Origin: a virus
DNA: 64,000 bases
Direction: 5' to 3' (one strand)
Virus record (IMG/VR): IMGVR_UViG_3300021432_000002
Span: 1 to 64,000 of that record
Shown here: positions 911 through 54,160 of the stretch, one piece after another
Layout of the letters: each line of letters starts with the position of its first letter
Position numbering within the stretch: the stretch's first letter is position 1
Notes under the pieces: model-generated
What the model saw: only the letters and a program-made list of their open reading frames with translations
Told to the model about the DNA's origin: nothing
Databases searched by the model: none
Translations under genes and position numbers: made by a program

Positions 911-1756
911 ATGCAAACTTACGCGGAATATCTACAGTCTCTTGGGGCCAGCGCGGAGGACGTCAAATTGATGGATACTCCTGTAGCGCGCCGAGCATAC
1001 GACGCGCTCCAGAAGCAGGCCGCTGATGCGCTTGCGGAAGCCGAACGACAGAAGGCCGGAGCGGATGCCTATCATGTCAAGGTGGATGACTGGTTCAAGA
1101 CTCACGACGCCGAATTCAAGACGGTCGAGCAGCAACTCATCGCCGCTCGCGCGAAAGCCGCTTCCTTCGAGTCCGCTCTCCGCACCATCAACGACCGGGG
1201 CATCATCGACGTGACGAAAGACCTCGGGCTGAATCTCGACGCTCCCGCCCCCGCAGCCAAAAAGGATGAACCCGTGGCCATCGACACCTCCAAGTTCGTG
1301 ACCACCGATGCTGTCCTCCAGCTCGCCGAGCGCGAGGCCGAATCCATCGCCATGATGTCGGACATTGCCGCCGAGCACGTCTACCTTTTCGGCGCTCCTC
1401 TTCGCAACGCGCGGGAACTCCGCAAGGAAGCCACCACTCGCAAGGTGTCCCTCGAACAGGTGTGGATGGAGAAGTACAAGGTGCCGGAGGCGCGCACCGC
1501 GAAGGAAGCCGCGACCGCGAAGGCGGCAGAGGATACCCTCCGCGCTAAAATCACCGAGGAAGTCACCGCGAAACTCGCGTCGCAGTACGGCAACCCGGAC
1601 CTCCGCCCCCTCGAACCTTCCCGCTCCTTCCTCATCCCCAACAAGGACCGCGGGCGCGACAAGGCTCCGTGGGAGCTGGGCACGGACGGCGACAGCGGAT
1701 CGAATGACAGGGTGCGGCGGGCCACCGCGAACGCAATGAAGGCGGGAGTTCACTAG
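911..1756 (+). CDS. Probable capsid scaffolding protein
   Basis: This 281-residue protein sits directly upstream of the major capsid gene, the usual place for a scaffold. It is mostly charged alpha-helix: residues 20-100 look like a coiled coil rich in Ala, Glu, Gln and Lys, followed by an Ala/Pro linker near 110-118 and a second helical block to about 225. The C-terminal 60 residues are Arg/Lys-rich, as expected for the coat-binding end of a scaffold. Scaffolds guide procapsid assembly and leave before or during DNA packaging. No direct sequence motif proves this; the call rests on position, length and composition. Confidence 0.7.
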   Translation: MQTYAEYLQSLGASAEDVKLMDTPVARRAYDALQKQAADALAEAERQKAGADAYHVKVDDWFKTHDAEFKTVEQQLIAARAKAASFESALRTINDRGIIDVTKDLGLNLDAPAPAAKKDEPVAIDTSKFVTTDAVLQLAEREAESIAMMSDIAAEHVYLFGAPLRNARELRKEATTRKVSLEQVWMEKYKVPEARTAKEAATAKAAEDTLRAKITEEVTAKLASQYGNPDLRPLEPSRSFLIPNKDRGRDKAPWELGTDGDSGSNDRVRRATANAMKAGVH

Positions 1757-3612: not shown

Positions 3613-4278
3613 ATGGCCGGTGGAATGCTCACAAAACAAGCCGATTTCCTGACCGCGAAGTTCCTCAATCAGGTGAACGACACCGCTGCTGGGGGCGTCA
3701 TCGTCTCGCTTCCCGCCGGCGCGCCTTCGCCCGCCGTGTCGCAAACCCTCCCCGGCGACCGCATCGTCCTCGACGACGCCACGGCCCTCGCGCTCTCTGG
3801 CATCCCAACCGGCTTGTCCACCGTGCAAAATCTCTACGGCGGCGTCTACATGTACGTCCAGACGCTCTCCTCCTCGACCGCTGCGCCTGCTTTGGGGGCG
3901 ATTGCCTTCTGGCGTACTACTGACCTCGGCTCCGGAGCCACGCCTCAATATCAATGCTCGGCAGACGCTTTGCCGACGACCGCCATTCCGGTCTACATCG
4001 CCGGCATCTTCATCAACGCCATCACCAAGGGCAACTTCGGCTGGATTCAGGTCGCGGGCCTTGCAACCGTGCTGCCAGATTCCGCGCTGACCGCCACGAC
4101 CGCTGGCGCATGGGCTTCCGCGAAAGTCTCCGCAGCCGTGGCCTCGACCGCCGACGCGGGCGCGGTCATCGGCGTCGTGACTCTTCCCGCGCAGCTTGGC
4201 GTGTGGATTGGCACACCGGCGGCCTCCACGCTCAATCCATGCTTGCTTACCCGCGGATTGTTTGGCGGGCGCGTTTAG
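3613..4278 (+). CDS. Head protein, possibly decoration or capsid fibre
   Basis: The start at 3613 has AGGAG eight bases upstream (3601-3605) and is preferred over an upstream in-frame ATG at 3571 that would lie inside the nuclease gene. The 221-residue product is rich in Ala, Thr, Val, Ser and Gly with few charges, as in beta-structured exterior head proteins. Position just after the coat gene suggests a decoration or head-fibre protein. No motif was recognised. Confidence 0.6.
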   Translation: MAGGMLTKQADFLTAKFLNQVNDTAAGGVIVSLPAGAPSPAVSQTLPGDRIVLDDATALALSGIPTGLSTVQNLYGGVYMYVQTLSSSTAAPALGAIAFWRTTDLGSGATPQYQCSADALPTTAIPVYIAGIFINAITKGNFGWIQVAGLATVLPDSALTATTAGAWASAKVSAAVASTADAGAVIGVVTLPAQLGVWIGTPAASTLNPCLLTRGLFGGRV

Positions 4279-4287
4279 GAGAGACTG

Positions 4288-4695
4288 ATGGGACTTCACC
4301 CGCTTCCTGGCTATCCGTGCCCCAATGAAAAGGGCGGTTATGATTGGGTTGGGGACGTGGACGGCCCAACTAGCTATGTCAACAGCGGAACCTTTGGCAC
4401 GTCCGGCCAGCAACTCAACGCACAGGACTTCGGCTTCGGGGGATTCGAGATCGTGGATGCGCCCGCTCTCAGCAGCGACGGTGTGAACGACATCGTGCTG
4501 GTGATGGGCGCGACCACCGGAGGAGCGACGGCTTTGTCGCCTTCACCTGGGGCGGGCCAGTCCGGTCCCGCTGTCCAGACCGCGGTGCTGCATTGGTTCA
4601 CGGCCATCCGCGGCGTGGGAGCCAACCCGACCGAGGTAGCGAACGCCACGAATCTCAGCGCGAAAATGGTCCGCTTGCGTATTGCGGGAGTCTAA
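4288..4695 (+). CDS. Small virion structural protein (135 aa)
   Basis: This product has Gly, Ala, Pro and aromatic residues, few charges and no membrane segment. Its start is nine bases after the previous stop, with AGGAGA at 4278-4283. It lies between the putative decoration gene and small basic genes. The C-terminal end (NLSAKMVRLRIAGV) looks like a closing beta strand. It is probably a minor head protein; no family was recognised. Confidence 0.6.
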   Translation: MGLHPLPGYPCPNEKGGYDWVGDVDGPTSYVNSGTFGTSGQQLNAQDFGFGGFEIVDAPALSSDGVNDIVLVMGATTGGATALSPSPGAGQSGPAVQTAVLHWFTAIRGVGANPTEVANATNLSAKMVRLRIAGV

Positions 4696-4707
4696 GGAGG
4701 CATCATC

Positions 4708-4878
4708 ATGCACGGAGTCTGGGCCGGAATGGGCCACGAAAAGGAACCGAAGCAGCCGCATGGCCCGAAGGAGCGCGGCAAGACGGTCATTCACTCGCAC
4801 TCGCACCGCCCGAAGCGCCGCATCAAAGGCGCGGCTATGCGCCCCAAGGTTCACGGCAAGCGCGAATCCAAACGCTAG
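4708..4878 (+). CDS. Small His/Lys/Arg-rich protein (56 aa)
   Basis: An ATG at 4708 follows TAAGGAGG at 4693-4700. The product starts MHGVWAGMGHEKEPKQPHG and is dominated by Lys, Arg, His, Gly and Pro. Like the genes at 264, 439 and 4891 it is a tiny basic protein placed among head genes, suggesting DNA contact inside the capsid. That role is inference. Confidence 0.6.
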   Translation: MHGVWAGMGHEKEPKQPHGPKERGKTVIHSHSHRPKRRIKGAAMRPKVHGKRESKR

Positions 4879-6005: not shown

Positions 6006-6465
6006 CTATATGAGGACGCCTTTTATCTCTGAACAGAGTCCAACAAGCGCGACATTCGCGGTTGCCCTCTTTGTCTATATGTGTGTTCTCCTTGGTGTAT
6101 TCGTGTCCATGAGGACAATGCGTTCTACTCGCATTGATAGCTGCGATGGTTTCTCCCTTGAGTATGTTCTCCCTGTGCGTGATTGTCTCCAAATGGCTTG
6201 GATTTACACAGTAAGGTATATTACACAGGTGATTAACCTCCAATCCTTTGGGAATTTCTCCAATAAAGTGTTGGTAGGCGAACCTGTGTGCTGCGACGAA
6301 GCGAGTGCGGCCCTTGTCCTTGTGACTGAAGAGAATTCCGTAGCCAATTCCTTCGTGGTATCTAGTGCCCGCTCGGGTGCCTGTCCATTCCCAGCATCCA
6401 GTAACCAAGTTCACCTTGAATTTCTCAAGAAAGCGTTCAAGTATGGGACGCCGTTTTGGAGGCAT
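5989..6465 (-). CDS. HNH homing endonuclease, antisense to the structural operon
   Basis: The 158-residue protein has a classic phage HNH layout. CWEWTG (about residues 24-29) and AHRFAYQHFIGEIP (about 62-75) are followed by the catalytic core VNHLCNIPYCVNPSHLE (about 80-96) with its His/Asn/His, then two zinc-binding pairs (CPHGHEYT and CRAC). It cuts or nicks DNA and usually spreads by homing. It is the only minus-strand gene in the 31-kb structural block. Its start codon (6463-6465) lies nine bases from the opposing start of the tail-spike gene, and its 3' end overlaps the connector gene. The region is A/T-richer than its neighbours. No good ribosome binding site precedes its ATG. Confidence 0.85.
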   Translation of the reverse strand: MPPKRRPILERFLEKFKVNLVTGCWEWTGTRAGTRYHEGIGYGILFSHKDKGRTRFVAAHRFAYQHFIGEIPKGLEVNHLCNIPYCVNPSHLETITHRENILKGETIAAINASRTHCPHGHEYTKENTHIDKEGNRECRACWTLFRDKRRPHIVRSGL

Positions 6466-6473
6466 AGAGCGCT

Positions 6474-9400
6474 ATGGTATCACGCATAACCATTAAAAAT
6501 ATACTATTTTTATTCGCTCTTGTGCTGCTCGCGCCGCTTGCGCGAGGCAACCAAAACGCTCAGGGTTGGTGCGAGGTCGGTGCCACGCCAGTCGTCACTT
6601 CCGGCCTGACCTCGACCACGACTGTCCAAGCCAGCTATCCCGCCTGTACCGTGACCGTGTTCGTCCACGGTGCGGGCCTTGCGACCATCTTCTCGGACAA
6701 CAATGGCACTCCCCTCTCGAATCCCTTCACCGCGCAGGCCAACGGGCGATGGCAATTCTACAGCGCAAATGGGCGCTACGATGTCCAGCTTTCCGGAGCC
6801 GGATTCCCCACTCCGGTAACCTATTCCGATGTGGTTCTACAAGACGCCGCCAACCAGCAGGCCGCCCTGCCCAACACCACTCTAACCTTCTCCGCGACTC
6901 CCGTCCTCAACGTCACGAACAACGTCTCCTACACCATGACGCTCACGGGCAACGTGACCTCCTCCACCACTACAGGTACGCCCGCGAACGGCAACATCCT
7001 CTCCCTGACGCTCGTCGAGGATGGCGTTGGAGGCCGCACCTTCGCCTTCCCCGCCAATTTCATCATCCCCCTCGGCTACACTCTCGACACCGTGCCCCTG
7101 CACACGAACGCCATTACCTTCAAGTTCGATGGCACGAACTGGAACGTCATCTCCAACTCCGGCACCAGCGGCGGCGGAGGCTCGGCGGCACAGGGCGTCG
7201 TCGGCACGGTACAGACCTCGAACGGCGCCGGCGTTCTCGCTGCCTCCGGCGAAGTGGACACCGGAACCGCCTTCAACGTGAGCCGCGACGCTCACTTCAA
7301 AGGGCCGAATCCAGTCGTCGATGTCACTCAGTACGGAGTGCGATCGGCGTGTGCGAGTGCGGCGCCCTGCGCTCCTGGCATCACCGCCACCACCACCAGC
7401 GGCCTGCCGACGATAACACTGTCCTCCGCGAGCACTTTCCAGAACGGCGACGGCGTGACCATCTATGGCGCGGGTGCGGCGCATTCCATGACCACGCCTA
7501 CCGCTCCGACCGTGACGCCTTCCCTCTCCGCAGGGCCGGCGGTCACAGGACCGGTGGTCAATGGTCCATCCGGCTCGACCACCTACAACTATAAAGTGAT
7601 GGCGCGGAACACCGCGCAAGGGCTGACCGCTGCCAGCGCGACCGGTTCTACCACGACAGGCGTGTCAACTCTAGGCTACAGCACGGTCGGCATTACCTCG
7701 CAATCCCGCTCTGGCACGGTCACTACCGTCACCACGTCCTCGGCGCATGGCCTCGCGGTCGGAGTGAAGGTGAATATCTTCCAAGCCACGGACGGGCCGG
7801 AGTTCAGCGGGTGGTTCATTGTGGCTACCGTCCCCGACACCACTCACTTCACCTATACGAACGGTATCGACGCTGCTGGTATCATCACCAGTACAACCTC
7901 CACGGGCGGAACAGTCAGTTGGGAGGAGTGCAACCACCTCACTTGGCCTGCCGTCACCGGAGCATCTCAATACGTCATTTACAGTGACCGCGCCAATCCC
8001 GGCACCTTCGCGCCCATCGGTATCTCGGAGCCGAACGTAACGTCGTGGGACGACTATGGCTCACCCATGATGGACGGCCTACTACTACCTTACTTTATCC
8101 CATCCACTCCTCCAGTCGCAGCGACCTCAAATAGCCTCACCACGACCATCCTATCTGGCGCGGGGACGACCTCACTCACCCTGAACGCGAACGCCGGAAC
8201 GTCAGTGAGCGGCGCGACGATCCTCTTCGACAATGCGCCCAACTTTGTAACGGCAGTCGCCGCAGGCGGAACCACCTACTTTCCGGCAGGCGGGACTTAC
8301 GTTTTCAACTCTTACGTCACGACTAACGCTAGCGTCTCCATCGGCGGGCAACTCTGGCTGAACGACACGATGCAGGTGCAGGGGAAGTGGACTGGCAGCC
8401 TCACGCCCACGAACACTAACGCACCTCAATTTAGCTTTGAGGCCGAGAATATCGTCAACGTCAATCGCGCCAACCCCGGCCTCTACAGTGCAGCGTTCAA
8501 TAGCAGCACGCTCAGAGGTTTGACATTTTCCCCACAAGGCAAGTCAGGCCGCGCGATTCTCATGCAGGGGAGCATCCAAGGGAACTATGAGTGGCTCAAC
8601 TGTGCCCTGCTTTCCGCCGACTACACGGGCATCTGCCTCGAACTCCACGGCGTGACCGCTGATGTGTTCTTCAACACGTTCAGGAATATCGCCTTCACCT
8701 CGCCGCAAGGATTGAATACGAGTGCTCCGCTGCTCGCGTTATCCGGCGTGGGCGTAGCTCATGGCGTTGGCATCACCCAAATGGAGAACTTCTCCCTGAG
8801 CGGCAGAGGAATCCACTCGGACGCCAGCGAGTTCTACGTTCGTGGAGGAAGATGCCAAGCGTGCTCGGCTCCGATATTCACCTACGTGGCGTCCGCTCAG
8901 AGCCGCATCGAGAACATCGACCAAGACACGATGACACCTTCCCTCATCGCTAACTTTGGCGCTCAGTCGAGCCTCTACATCAAGAACTCCGGCTCGCCGT
9001 CCTTCGACGGCGTGAGTTCGCAGCCGGTAATTACAGGCAAACCTTTTGGCAGCGTCGCAGGAGACGGCGTAAGCGGTCAGAACACTAACCAAGGCAACTT
9101 CGGCTTCACTTCCGGCTGGTCAGGAACGAAGATTTCCAGCGGAACGGCAGTCGCAAACTTCGGCCAAGGCTCGTCCGCGTCCATCGGCTACCAAATGACC
9201 ACCGGCACGCCAACCGTAAGCATCAGCGGCGCGACAGGTCCAGCGGCAGGAACCTACTATTACAGCCTTGAAGCTGTGGATGCGCTCGGTAACGCTACGG
9301 CTCCAGGGAATCCATCGACCTCAATCACCGTCAATGGTAGCCAAGGCGTCTTGATTACCTTTCCAACCCGCGCCTCCGGTCAGGTATTTTGGAACGTCTG

Positions 9401-39966: not shown

Positions 39967-41297
39967 AACCATCTCCTGACTCTCTCATCCATCTTGACCT
40001 GCCTGACGAACGAATCCTTGTTGATGACCACTCGCAGGCCCTCCAACGTGCGGCATCGGCTGAGGGCGACGTAGGCCATGGCGTTCCCTGAGAAGAACCT
40101 GTCGCGCATATCGACTTGCACGCGGTCCAAGCTGAGTCCTTGGCTCTTATGCACGGTACTCGCGTACGCGAGCCGCATCGGGAAGTATCTGACCTGCCCC
40201 GTCACATACCGCTTGTCCTTCGGGCGATAGTGTGGCCGCGGAAGCCAGCCCTCCCCGGCCAGCTCGCTTACCTCGTCGCCATGCCAGCCGGAAGGCTCGT
40301 CGTCCTGTGCCACTTCGCGGATTATCCTGCCGACCGTCACGACCTTGCCCGTGCGAACGAGTTCGATGTCGAAGGTCTGCGCTTCGGCGTTCCATTGCCG
40401 GACGTAGCCGCAGTCCCCGTTCACCATGCTGAAGTCCCGTGTGTTGGAGAGAATCATCACGTACGCGCCGATCTTCATCTCCATGCTTGGCGGTATGCCC
40501 CACTCGTGCGTCCGCTTGTTCTCGCCCCACTCGGATCGCTGCTGGCCCCAGCGCTCGCTCGTCACCTTGAACGACTGGCCGAGCACTCCCTTCAATACCT
40601 CGGCGTTGTGCCGCGATACCATGTCATTCTTGGGGAGGATGGTCGTCCCGTCGAACTCCACCACGCGAGCGGAATTCCATTTCATCCCCGCCGCGGTGAG
40701 CACTTCCGCGCACGCGCCGCCGTCGCCCATGCGCGCGTGATTGAGCGCGTCTAGGAATGGGCCTTCGCCCTGGCGCCACACCTTGTCCATTCGCACCGTA
40801 TTGGAAGCGAACTCCGGCCAGCACGCGGCAGTGAAGGCCCATTCGCCCTTCACGGGAGGGAGCTGCGCGAAGTCGCCGACGAGCAGGATGCCCATCGGCT
40901 GCTTGATGTCCGAGTAGCGGTTGGCCTCCTGCGTCGCGCGGTACAGGTAATCCAACTGAGGCTCCTCTAGCATGCTGGCTTCCTCGACGAGGAACCATTT
41001 CTTTTTGAGGGCAATTTTGTGGAGCGCGCGGGTGAGATGGCCGGAGAGGAACGCGTCGCGCATGCTCAAGGTGTCGAAGTAGCGGAGTGTGCTGTTCAGA
41101 GTCACGGCTCCGAGATTCACGCTTGCAATTCCAGTCGTGGCGGTGACGCAAGCCCACGACTCGTCCTTCTGGGCCTGCTCCATGACCCAGAAGGACTTCC
41201 CCGTGCCTGCGCGTCCGGTCCTGAACGCACAGGGGACCGGACGCTCCTCACTTAGCTCTTGGACTTCGTTGGAGACGAGTTGGGTGTCGTCGGACAT
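39963..41297 (-). CDS. Dda/Pif1-like SF1B DNA helicase (444 aa)
   Basis: Helicase motifs are in order: Walker A GRAGTGKSFW (motif I), Ia TATTGIASVNLG, Walker B FLVEEASML (II), LVGDFAQLPPV (III), and late motifs TVHKSQGLSLD (V) and YVALSRCRTLEGL (VI). This is the SF1B (RecD2/Dda/Pif1) layout. It should unwind DNA 5' to 3' in replication or recombination, using ATP. The start is taken at MSDDTQ (41297); the upstream TTG at 41333 lies deep inside the upstream gene. Confidence 0.85.
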   Translation of the reverse strand: MSDDTQLVSNEVQELSEERPVPCAFRTGRAGTGKSFWVMEQAQKDESWACVTATTGIASVNLGAVTLNSTLRYFDTLSMRDAFLSGHLTRALHKIALKKKWFLVEEASMLEEPQLDYLYRATQEANRYSDIKQPMGILLVGDFAQLPPVKGEWAFTAACWPEFASNTVRMDKVWRQGEGPFLDALNHARMGDGGACAEVLTAAGMKWNSARVVEFDGTTILPKNDMVSRHNAEVLKGVLGQSFKVTSERWGQQRSEWGENKRTHEWGIPPSMEMKIGAYVMILSNTRDFSMVNGDCGYVRQWNAEAQTFDIELVRTGKVVTVGRIIREVAQDDEPSGWHGDEVSELAGEGWLPRPHYRPKDKRYVTGQVRYFPMRLAYASTVHKSQGLSLDRVQVDMRDRFFSGNAMAYVALSRCRTLEGLRVVINKDSFVRQVKMDERVRRWL

Positions 41298-48254: not shown

Positions 48255-48304
48255 TTTGAACCTCCTGCGACTCACCGAGTCGGTTTTATCATAGCATGGG
48301 AATC

Positions 48305-48313: not shown

Positions 48314-48405
48314 CTTTTTCTTGCATTATTTTACATGACTTGCTGTTATCGGTCCATGACTGGTGGTAAGTCGTTGAAAATAATTCGCTTGGCTATACGA
48401 TTTCG

Positions 48406-48413
48406 CTTGACAG
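48406..48413 (+). promoter_or_regulatory. TTGACA promoter box for the lone plus-strand gene
   Basis: CTTGACAG at 48406-48413 lies about 120 bases upstream of the ATG at 48534 and just before the structured leader. The -10 region at 17 bases is not convincing (GGCATT), while TATGAG lies at 13. This box and the opposite one at 48305 form a divergent promoter pair. Transcription from here would include the pseudoknot and hairpin at 48461-48525. Confidence 0.45.
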
Positions 48414-48460
48414 CCTACCCCCACTATGAGGCATTCTGCGCCTGCGAAGGTCGTGAAAGG

Positions 48461-48525
48461 ACTCCGCCTGAGCAGCGGTTCTCGGAGTGAATCGCTGCTC
48501 GGGTCTCCTTCTCGGCCAGAAGGAG
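48461..48525 (+). ncRNA. Structured 5' leader: possible pseudoknot plus hairpin covering the ribosome binding site
   Basis: Seen directly: ACTCCG (48461-48466) is complementary to CGGAGT (48483-48488), and GAGCAGCG (48470-48477) to CGCTGCTC (48493-48500). The two stems interleave as in an H-type pseudoknot, with loops of 3, 5 and 4 bases. Then CTCCTTCT (48505-48512) pairs perfectly with AGAAGGAG (48518-48525) around a five-base loop. The latter arm contains AAGGAG, the ribosome binding site of the ATG at 48534. The layout (aptamer-like fold, then RBS-sequestering hairpin) matches a translational riboswitch, an RNA thermometer or a protein-binding operator. The stems are perfect pairs, but no covariance was tested. 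Confidence 0.6.
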
Positions 48526-48533
48526 CCACTTTC

Positions 48534-49457
48534 ATGTGTACTAGCACATTTGTACCTGAATCACTTCCCCCCGCAATCCTCGCCTACCTCGAAACCCCTT
48601 ACGAAGCCGACCACGCCCCCGGCCTGCCTCCAGAGTGTTTCCGCACCACCTACTCCCGCCAGCTCGCCCGCCACGATCTCCAAGACAAAGCCACCCGCGC
48701 GGACAATGAAACTTCCTACTTCCACTGGTACCGCGACGCTGATCTCGCCACCTGGCGTCAGCACGCCGCGAACTCCATGCTCCGGACTATGCCCTATCAC
48801 GCGAAGAAGCTCGCGGAGCAGCAGTACGTCAAGCACCTGCCGCTCGCTGACTTCCTCGGGGACACTCTCTCGCGTGTCACCTTTACCCTCCCCACGTGGG
48901 ACGTGGAATCCTCCCAGCATCTCCTCAAGGTACTATTCGCCCTGACGAACCGCCTCCTGCCCAAGTCGCTCTCCAAAATTGCCTCGGCCAGAGAACTCCC
49001 CGCGATCAAGATCCTCCACACCCGCCCCATGACCCTAGACCTAGCCCGCAAGATACAGTCCGCCCTACCCCCAGGAGTGAAGTTCCAATACTCCAACCAT
49101 CCCGCCACCGCCGTCCGCCAAGAACTCCGGGCCACCACCGCCGCAGACCTGCCTTCCTCAGACACCCACCGCGCGGACCTCGAAGCCATCCTCGGCAACT
49201 CCCACCAAGTCCGGCTCCACAAGTTCTCAAAGGCGGAACGTCAGAAATTTGTATATGGAGGGGATGGTACCTATACAAATTTCCAAGAGGGTGATCCTCC
49301 GCCTGAATCCCCTTCCAAGGGCAAACGCAAGGGAAAAGTGGTCCCCAAGAACCCTGCGACGGGCAAGCCGGCGATCTGGCGGAGCAAAATGGTGGATGAG
49401 AACGTCCGAGGGGACGGCATCCCTGAGCAGGATTGGGTGCTAATCGGCTCGGATTGA
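48534..49457 (+). CDS. Lone plus-strand gene of unknown function (307 aa)
   Basis: The ATG at 48534 follows AAGGAG (48520-48525), which lies inside a perfect hairpin (see the leader entry); a longer frame to 48426 would cross the leader. The product (MCTSTFVPESLPPAILAYLE start) has a mixed N-terminal domain (about residues 1-110), a helical part (about 110-190) and a Lys/Pro/Gly-rich C-terminus with KGKRKGKVV near residue 270. It has no membrane segment and no recognised enzyme motif. It is read against the operons on both sides. A separately controlled solitary gene between two operons is often a regulator or host-takeover factor; that is inference. Confidence 0.6.
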   Translation: MCTSTFVPESLPPAILAYLETPYEADHAPGLPPECFRTTYSRQLARHDLQDKATRADNETSYFHWYRDADLATWRQHAANSMLRTMPYHAKKLAEQQYVKHLPLADFLGDTLSRVTFTLPTWDVESSQHLLKVLFALTNRLLPKSLSKIASARELPAIKILHTRPMTLDLARKIQSALPPGVKFQYSNHPATAVRQELRATTAADLPSSDTHRADLEAILGNSHQVRLHKFSKAERQKFVYGGDGTYTNFQEGDPPPESPSKGKRKGKVVPKNPATGKPAIWRSKMVDENVRGDGIPEQDWVLIGSD

Positions 49458-49470
49458 CCCTCCGAGACGC

Positions 49471-49533
49471 TCAAAACAACTCACATAAGGCCAGCAGGAT
49501 CAAGATAAGGATGAACCATGCCCGTTTGCTCAT
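49471..49533 (-). CDS. Tiny single-membrane-segment peptide (20 aa)
   Basis: The ATG at 49533 overlaps the stop of the upstream gene (ATGA) and has AGGAGG within it. The product MSKRAWFILILILLALCELF is a basic start plus one hydrophobic segment, ending in TGA at 49471-49473. It is the last gene of the minus-strand early operon. A similar small membrane protein is at 50695. It may be a lysis or membrane-modulating peptide. Confidence 0.45.
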   Translation of the reverse strand: MSKRAWFILILILLALCELF

Positions 49534-53452: not shown

Positions 53453-53461
53453 CTTGTCAAG
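53453..53461 (-). promoter_or_regulatory. CTTGACAAG box of the early minus-strand operon
   Basis: Minus-strand CTTGACAAG identical to that at 81, 44866 and 48305, with an A/T-rich run before it. At 17 bases the -10 is poor (AGACAC). It stands about 70 bases before the ATG at 53385. Confidence 0.45.
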
Positions 53462-53520
53462 AGAAAAGACAGTATCTACCAAAAATAGATTGAACTCGGC
53501 GTGCTCAGATGGGTAATAAT

Positions 53521-53835
53521 GTTACAGAGTGTCGGGCAATCACGACAGATGTAACAAAAGGTTACGAAATGAATATGCAGAGGAATATGCAGGATGGGTG
53601 ATTTCGTAACAAACTGTCGTCCTTAGCCGACAGTGACAAAAAACGTCACAATAATGACCGTAAGTGTCACTATGACTATTCCCGTCAGTACCAGACGAGA
53701 AGTGTCAGCGAGTACGGCTAGTACTACTCTGTCCGCCATTGTCCGGAACCATTGTCCCGGCCATGAGGATGTAACGCGCCGTAACAATGTTACCGGACGT
53801 GACAGTAACGTTACTCCCTCCTGTAACAATGTGAC
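53521..53835. repeat. Cluster of 15 GTNAC pentamers, candidate origin or control region
   Basis: GTNAC (GTAAC, GTTAC, GTGAC or GTCAC) starts at 53521, 53551, 53561, 53606, 53633, 53645, 53666, 53771, 53781, 53789, 53799, 53805, 53810, 53823 and 53831. Chance would give about one in this length. The last eight fall within 65 bases, spaced mostly 5-13 bases apart, and form dyads such as GTAACAATGTTAC and GTAACGTTAC. The region separates the minus-strand early operon from the plus-strand packaging operon. It could hold iteron-like binding sites for a replication initiator or a transcription regulator. No initiator gene was identified. Confidence 0.6.
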
Positions 53836-53839
53836 ATCC

Positions 53840-54160
53840 CGCCCGCCGGCCAGGTCGATCGTCCCCGCGATGGTCATAGGCCGGGTGGCGCGAGTTGTCT
53901 GATAATGGAGGGGAGGATGACGGGTCCGTGATTTGGAGTCCCGTTCCCTCTCATCACGCCATTTTCATCATTTTTTATTTTCTTTGTATTCATGGGCTTA
54001 CGACGATTTCCACTATTCCCGCGAGCCTGAGTGCAATTTTCCTCTTGACATGCTATCCGCGACGTGGGACAGTGGATGGCAACTCGAATAGCAATGCCCC
54101 ACAGGGGGAGGCGGCTTCTACTCTTAGGGAGAGCCGGACCCGCCTCCTCCATTGAAAAGG
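53840..54160. other. Gene-free spacer upstream of the packaging operon
   Basis: About 320 bases with no convincing gene. It holds an A/T-rich run (ATTTTCATCATTTTTTATTT near 53965-53985), a weak dyad ACGGG/CCCGT, and the TTGACA box at 54045. The overlapping open frames have poor composition. It probably carries the promoter region of the plus-strand operon. Confidence 0.5.
54044..54050 (+). promoter_or_regulatory. CTTGACA box upstream of the packaging operon
   Basis: CTTGACA at 54044-54050 with an A/T-rich run upstream, about 110 bases before the ATG at 54161. The expected -10 at 17 bases (GACAGT) is poor. It shares its core with the other boxes at operon heads. Confidence 0.4.

Follow-up and report, generated by a model that had tools for sequence, protein, structure and literature searches.

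The stretch of DNA analysed here (the window) covers 64 kb of the 64,123-base record of an uncultured virus, and it contains a single + strand gene, P0001, flanked in the ORF map by two operons on the - strand. The question raised by this locus is what the folded region in front of P0001 does. A sequence-only reading had described it as a riboswitch-like leader, in which an aptamer-like pseudoknot precedes a hairpin that hides the ribosome binding site, and had placed it alone with its gene behind a promoter box and opposed to both neighbours. This arrangement was confirmed, since the box TTGACA is at 48407-48412 and both neighbours are on the - strand. The explanation that we favour, with a probability of about one half, is that the leader is a translational brake and not a metabolite aptamer, that the gene most likely encodes a protein akin to rolling-circle replication initiators but decayed, and that an inverted repeat inside the gene is probably the site of its product. 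The start of the gene contains the following features:

48407-48412, + strand: -35 box TTGACA, read from the sequence as the probable promoter of P0001 itself.
48520-48525, + strand: Shine-Dalgarno sequence (SD) AAGGAG, which serves the ATG at 48534.
48534-48549, + strand: start codon within a 6-bp hairpin, AUGUGU-ACUA-GCACAU, found by folding.
48534-49457, + strand: gene P0001, encoding 307 aa, member of a fast-evolving family with a Rep-like fold in one relative.

No good -10 box is found at 16-18 nt past the TTGACA, where GGCATT is located at 17 nt, and the transcript probably starts near 48442. A promoter scan showed no promoter-like site within the leader. The TTGACA box is also present 87-197 nt before the start codon in the related phages L002, L003, L186, L189 and L196, and one is located upstream in L201.

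The stems of the sequence-only reading are present as described. Stem 1 pairs ACTCCG (48461-48466) with CGGAGT (48483-48488), stem 2 pairs GAGCAGCG (48470-48477) with CGCTGCTC (48493-48500), and the loops between the interleaved arms have 3, 5 and 4 nt. Its SD hairpin also agrees with the sequence: CTCCTTCT (48505-48512) pairs with AGAAGGAG (48518-48525), and the 3' arm includes the AAGGAG at 48520-48525. Folding gives these elements:

48466-48504, + strand: H1, 16-bp hairpin with a 7-nt loop, UCGGAGU, of -29.0 kcal/mol.
48505-48525, + strand: H2, perfect 8-bp hairpin CUCCUUCU-CGGCC-AGAAGGAG over the SD, found by folding and in a survey of start sites.
48461-48466, + strand: 5' strand of stem 1, ACUCCG, which could pair with the H1 loop in the unsupported pseudoknot.
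48450-48461, + strand: upstream strand GGUCGUGAAAGG, which in an SD-open alternative can take up the 5' arm of H2 together with its loop, found in the minimum free energy fold of 48430-48560 and by constrained folding.

The minimum free energy fold of 48455-48545 shows H1 and then directly H2, with the entire SD in H2. The sequence of H1 is GCCUGAGCAGCGGUUC-UCGGAGU-GAAUCGCUGCUCGGGU, and both arms of stem 2 form its middle. The H-type pseudoknot that had been proposed from the two stems is not favoured by these energies: its stems show stacking sums of -12.4 and -17.9 kcal/mol, which give -30.3 kcal/mol before any penalty, against -29.3 kcal/mol for the nested fold. The usual penalty of a pseudoknot is 7-9 kcal/mol, and with it the knot has about -21 to -23 kcal/mol, around 6-8 kcal/mol worse than the nested fold. 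Pairing of the H1 loop to the upstream flank is as good as stem 1, counted as the 5 bp outside H1, in 27% of the shuffles (p 0.27). Because the knot is energetically worse and stem 1 is within chance, a pseudoknot in the leader is possible but unsupported. The strand at 48450-48461, which lies outside the element delimited by the sequence-only reading, can compete for the 5' arm of H2, and for this reason the leader is predicted to be bistable, with a balance that moves with the transcript ends. An intrinsic terminator formed by H1 or H2 was ruled out, as a T run is absent on either strand.

The leader is folded beyond chance, although every statistical test reported here was devised post hoc, with the sequences already viewed, and the relatives are few. 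The region 48455-48545 shows a folding z of -4.0, equalled by none of 200 shuffles, and only three 80-nt stretches of the window are more over-folded than 48461-48540 (both strands, G+C-corrected). Among 72 predicted start sites, H2 is the longest perfect hairpin that covers an SD (8 pairs, followed by 6 and 5), with p 0.018 against shuffled sequence before the SD. The SD is held in a stable helix, as expected of a translational leader that sequesters it. Its unpaired probability ranges from 0.01 to 0.33, depending on the transcript ends chosen. Opening the SD within the complete transcript costs 4.5 kcal/mol, a value that is ordinary with respect to shuffled leaders (p 0.63), in part because the alternative fold between 48450-48461 and H2 frees the SD. 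Over nine leaders this opening cost gives a Fisher value of 0.12, and only L196 stands out; G+C-rich leaders hide their SDs easily. In the shuffle test performed alongside the relatives, the leader of the window shows an over-folding z of -3.8, and other leaders of the same phage are somewhat folded too (z -2.7 and -2.3).

The protein encoded by P0001 shows no match with its own sequence in Pfam, PHROGs, GenBank phages or IMG/VR, and relatives were found solely via the neighbouring genes. The search with the UvrD helicase led to L002 and L003, and the search with the Sak4-like protein led to L186-L189, L196, L197 and L199. Only two close phages came from the helicase searches; the remaining loci were distant, and no relative of P0001 was found in those examined. 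A scan of a genome collection with the Sak4 alignment gave no match. Between the window and L003, most of the larger shared genes have 57-82% protein identity and the P0001 counterpart has 25%. The L189 homologue shows 27% identity over 292 residues (E 2e-29), and the neighbouring genes of the other relatives are around 31-66% identical. Since its identity is 25-27% and that of the neighbouring genes is much higher, P0001 evolves far faster than its neighbours. The L196 gene is linked through the L186 gene (E 1e-4), and the gene of L201, which is the same phage as L197, by profile (E 1.6e-16). The P0001 family is located at the same divergent place in the related phages. L002, L188 and L199 have genes at this place without demonstrated homology, and they were counted only as same-position leaders. 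In L199, a different, P-loop-containing gene (6325-7515, - strand) is found in the place of the Rep-like gene, with a perfect 9-bp hairpin covering the SD (p 0.001). In L003, an ORF that by eye resembles an ECF-type sigma factor (3947-4546, + strand) adjoins the divergent gene.

Folded leaders are found at the same locus in L003, L189, L186, L196 and L201, with unrelated leader sequence, and most leaders of the relatives show a long G+C-rich first hairpin. Even where another phage shows about 70% identity in the neighbouring genes, its leader cannot be aligned with that of the window (the blastn match goes no further than 48317), and the leaders of the window, L003, L002 and the others do not align among themselves: the layout is kept and the sequence is not. 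The combined over-folding z over nine leaders is -6.7, and the other leaders tested show -2.7 or weaker. For a local SD hairpin, the shuffle test over nine leaders gives a Fisher value of 3e-4: the hairpin is significant in the window, in L003, L189 and L199 and weakly in L002, and not in L186, L188, L196 and L201. In two of the latter, L186 and L196, the SD or the start codon is instead paired to distant sequence at the leader's 5' end. What is conserved at the locus is a tendency to a folded leader that covers the start, not an aptamer; if the proposed control is right, a regulatory RNA layout persists here although its sequence turns over completely.

Natural aptamers retain their cores. 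Conservation of the leader among related phages, which the sequence-only reading had offered as a check, was not found, and the leader has no Rfam match at the gathering score. As there is neither an aptamer core in the relatives nor an Rfam match, the riboswitch label is not supported; the leader probably does not sense a small molecule. From the proposed layout of a translational switch, the SD-hiding hairpin stands and folded leaders recur at the locus, but the aptamer fold is not supported. Translational control by the leader is plausible.

The AlphaFold model of the window protein, built with three sequences, has a pLDDT of 37 and was not used. The model of the L196 protein shows a core with a pLDDT of about 80 and the order beta-alpha-beta-beta-alpha-beta. 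This protein keeps zinc-type cysteine pairs and has a weak match to an IS91-type zinc domain. Its BFVD matches named microvirus initiators have E values of 6e-4 to 2e-3 and a low TM of about 0.25, and other viral structure matches are a putative replication protein VP4 and protein 1 of Halorubrum pleomorphic virus 1. Against solved structures, the best match is the ferredoxin-like ribosomal protein S6 (E 0.005), and none is below E 0.001. The HUH motif is absent: neither the third strand of L196 nor the corresponding stretch of P0001 contains H-x-H. Our best guess for P0001, made from the model of its relative, is a decayed Rep-type protein.

The gene itself contains a nucleic-acid feature that the sequence-only reading did not mention and that is better supported than the leader:

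49244-49283, + strand: inverted repeat GAAATTTGTATA-16 nt-TATACAAATTTC, with 12-bp arms, the longest perfect one in the window (ranking of perfect arms with spacers up to 30 nt).

Repeats with a spacer of 11-19 nt are located at 74-78% of the gene length in L003 (14 bp), L189 (10 bp), L186 (9 bp), L201 (13 bp with one mismatch) and L002 (16 bp). The repeat is thus present in five of the six members of the P0001 family and in the same-place gene of L002, with p 0.00-0.06 in these six genes; the L196 gene has no conspicuous repeat, and among eight neighbouring control genes none has an inverted repeat beyond the shuffles. Between the arms of the window and those of L189 there is a paired change of T-A to C-G (GTATA/TATAC to GCATA/TATGC), which alters Val and Thr to Ala and Ala in the protein and points to selection on the nucleic acid. 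Origins are often located within initiator genes, such as phiX174 A, P2 A and lambda O, and a candidate origin or operator is therefore the favoured function by analogy. Kept by compensatory change, the repeat marks a candidate site that can be assayed directly. The GC skew shows no minimum at P0001. In the same-place gene of L002, a 32-nt exact direct repeat, GCGAAAGTTAAGCGAATTGACGGAATTAGACG, with further partial copies (1725-2060, - strand) is iteron-like and lies beside the inverted repeat of that gene.

Other features were observed in the window. The hairpin CGACTC-GGT-GAGTCG (48268-48282, - strand) is at the extreme 5' end of the helicase transcript, and L002 and L003 show CGAGCC-GTT-GGCTCG at the same position, with paired stem changes with respect to the window. 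Between the two diverging promoters, 48325-48384 contains a 17-nt imperfect inverted repeat (82%) with AAAATAAT arms, and similar ATTATTTT motifs in L002 and L003 make a shared operator possible. A 20-aa membrane-type micro-ORF, MSKRAWFILILILLALCELF (49468-49530, - strand), overlaps the stop of the topoisomerase-like gene and is conserved as MSKRAWFVLLLILLALVELF near 1138-1198 (+ strand) of L002 and VTRRAWWFVALVILAVLELL near 4758-4820 (+ strand) of L003. The region 53460-54040, about 550 bp between diverging operons, contains GTAACA/TGTTAC and GTGACA/TGTCAC motifs in inverted pairs, with a 10-bp perfect repeat at 53561-53610, and looks like an operator cluster or origin. Two perfect 11-bp hairpins in tandem within the 5' coding part of a Dda-like helicase (41163-41244, - strand) give the window its top-ranking 80-nt stretch for over-folding.

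According to the favoured explanation, the transcript would carry P0001 alone and begin with a structured 5' untranslated leader, 48442-48533. In this leader H1 would form once transcribed, H2 would next mask the SD, and the start codon would sit in the further small hairpin, so that ribosomes would rarely load and the protein would be kept scarce. Opening from the likely transcript start would cost around 3-6 kcal/mol and may be transient, during transcription or upon binding of something; protein autoregulation, antisense RNA or loop pairing, and simple low-level expression would each fit. P0001 would encode a protein that works in DNA replication or in controlling it, with the repeat inside the gene as its probable DNA site.

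Several alternatives were considered. Replication control of the plasmid type, in which an antisense RNA or loop pairing would act on H1 and so set the initiator level, in the manner of the IncI-alpha, IncB or IncFII rep leaders, is rather unlikely. It draws on the Rep-like fold of L196 and on the complementarity of the H1 loop in four relatives: to a downstream stretch by the SD in L003 (GUGGACAC:GUGUCCAC, 8 bp, p 0.010), L188 (CCGGGAA:UUCCCGG, 7 bp, p 0.010) and L196 (UCUAGCCG:CGGCUAGG, 8 bp, p 0.022), and to an upstream stretch of the flanking leader in L189 (7 bp, p 0.012). Short upstream reading frames are also found, one of 19 codons (19 aa) in L186 that overlaps the gene start, and one of eight codons in L196 that ends just 5' of the SD of the gene. 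However, loop pairing of this kind is absent in the window (p 0.67 for the site by the SD), L186 and L201, the downstream pairing over the leaders has a Fisher value of 0.0096 from a post hoc test, and no antisense promoter or terminator was recognised in a weak promoter scan.

Protein autoregulation, in which the ferredoxin-like product would bind its own leader and stop its own translation, as T4 gp43, gp32 and ribosomal S6 do, is unlikely. The T4 precedents (PMC3014915), the position of S6 at the top of the solved-structure matches of L196, and the fast divergence of both leader and protein, which fits a co-evolving pair, are consistent with it. Against it, the S6-type matches do not reach significance and go back to a widespread fold, and the leaders have no shared RNA motif. 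It is equally improbable that the region has no regulatory role, either as a G+C-rich leader that folds by chance or as a coding region that begins at 48426 or 48454. The leader is in open frame with P0001 (343 aa counted from 48426), so that a longer protein from an upstream start is conceivable, and the SD opening cost is ordinary; but the over-folding of the leader, alone and combined with the relatives, argues against chance, no SD precedes 48426, and such an extension is missing in L189 and L186.

A time-delay brake of the T4 gene e and I-TevI kind, in which early long transcripts are silenced and a later promoter inside the hairpin frees the SD, has little probability. In T4, the genes e, soc and 49 and that of I-TevI are controlled in this way (PMC3014915), and H2 is local, so that a transcript beginning near 48512 would lose its 5' arm. 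On the other hand, the scan of the leader found no promoter-like site, the immediate upstream genes are on the other strand, so that sense read-through is not expected, and the relatives, too, have a -35 box ahead of the folded part. A ligand-sensing riboswitch or an RNA thermometer is very improbable, since the SD-covering hairpin downstream of another structured element and the predicted bistability are outweighed by the missing Rfam match and conserved core, by the pseudoknot that is not favoured and, for a thermometer, by an 8-bp hairpin beside a 16-bp one that is probably too stable near growth temperature.

Returning to the translational brake, a wider proposal is made tentatively, as a possibility well short of even odds: that this group of dsDNA tailed phages has a plasmid-like module of replicon control, in which a catalytically decayed Rep-type initiator, with a binding site or origin within its own gene, would be made only sparingly because of a two-hairpin leader that evolves fast, and some members would add loop pairing and short upstream frames. 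If right, it would offer a concrete and testable site of replication control for uncultured phages that are little known as a group.

The leader of the window shares with the SAM-II and preQ1-II riboswitches, whose pseudoknots mask the SD, the general layout of a fold and SD occlusion, but it shows no conserved aptamer core, Rfam match or favoured pseudoknot. With respect to the HUH initiators of Microviridae and of P2 (gpA), the L196 model resembles the microvirus initiators, and the candidate site inside P0001 is like the phiX174 and P2 origins, which lie in the gene; in contrast, the HUH motif is absent, the phage is a dsDNA phage with its own DNA polymerase, and the resemblance comes from the L196 model and not from the window protein. 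The closest phage precedent is the SD hiding of the T4 genes e, soc, 49 and I-TevI (PMC3014915), where a local helix also holds the SD and blocks loading of the 30S subunit. The T4 genes rely on read-through early transcripts and a promoter within the hairpin, whereas the leader of the window has its own upstream box and opposed neighbours. The rep leaders of IncI-alpha ColIb-P9 and IncB show a strong stem-loop I followed by an SD-covering element, as here, with a product that is perhaps Rep-like in our case, and IncI-alpha rep leaders are controlled by antisense RNA or loop pairing (PMC8383071, PMC10286972). The window differs from them in having no known antisense RNA, proven pseudoknot or leader peptide, and its protein is unrelated in sequence, but some relatives resemble them in the loop pairing and the short upstream reading frame. 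Finally, the ColE2-type replicons of Pseudomonas show a structured leader before a rep gene that contains a putative origin (PMC5304414).
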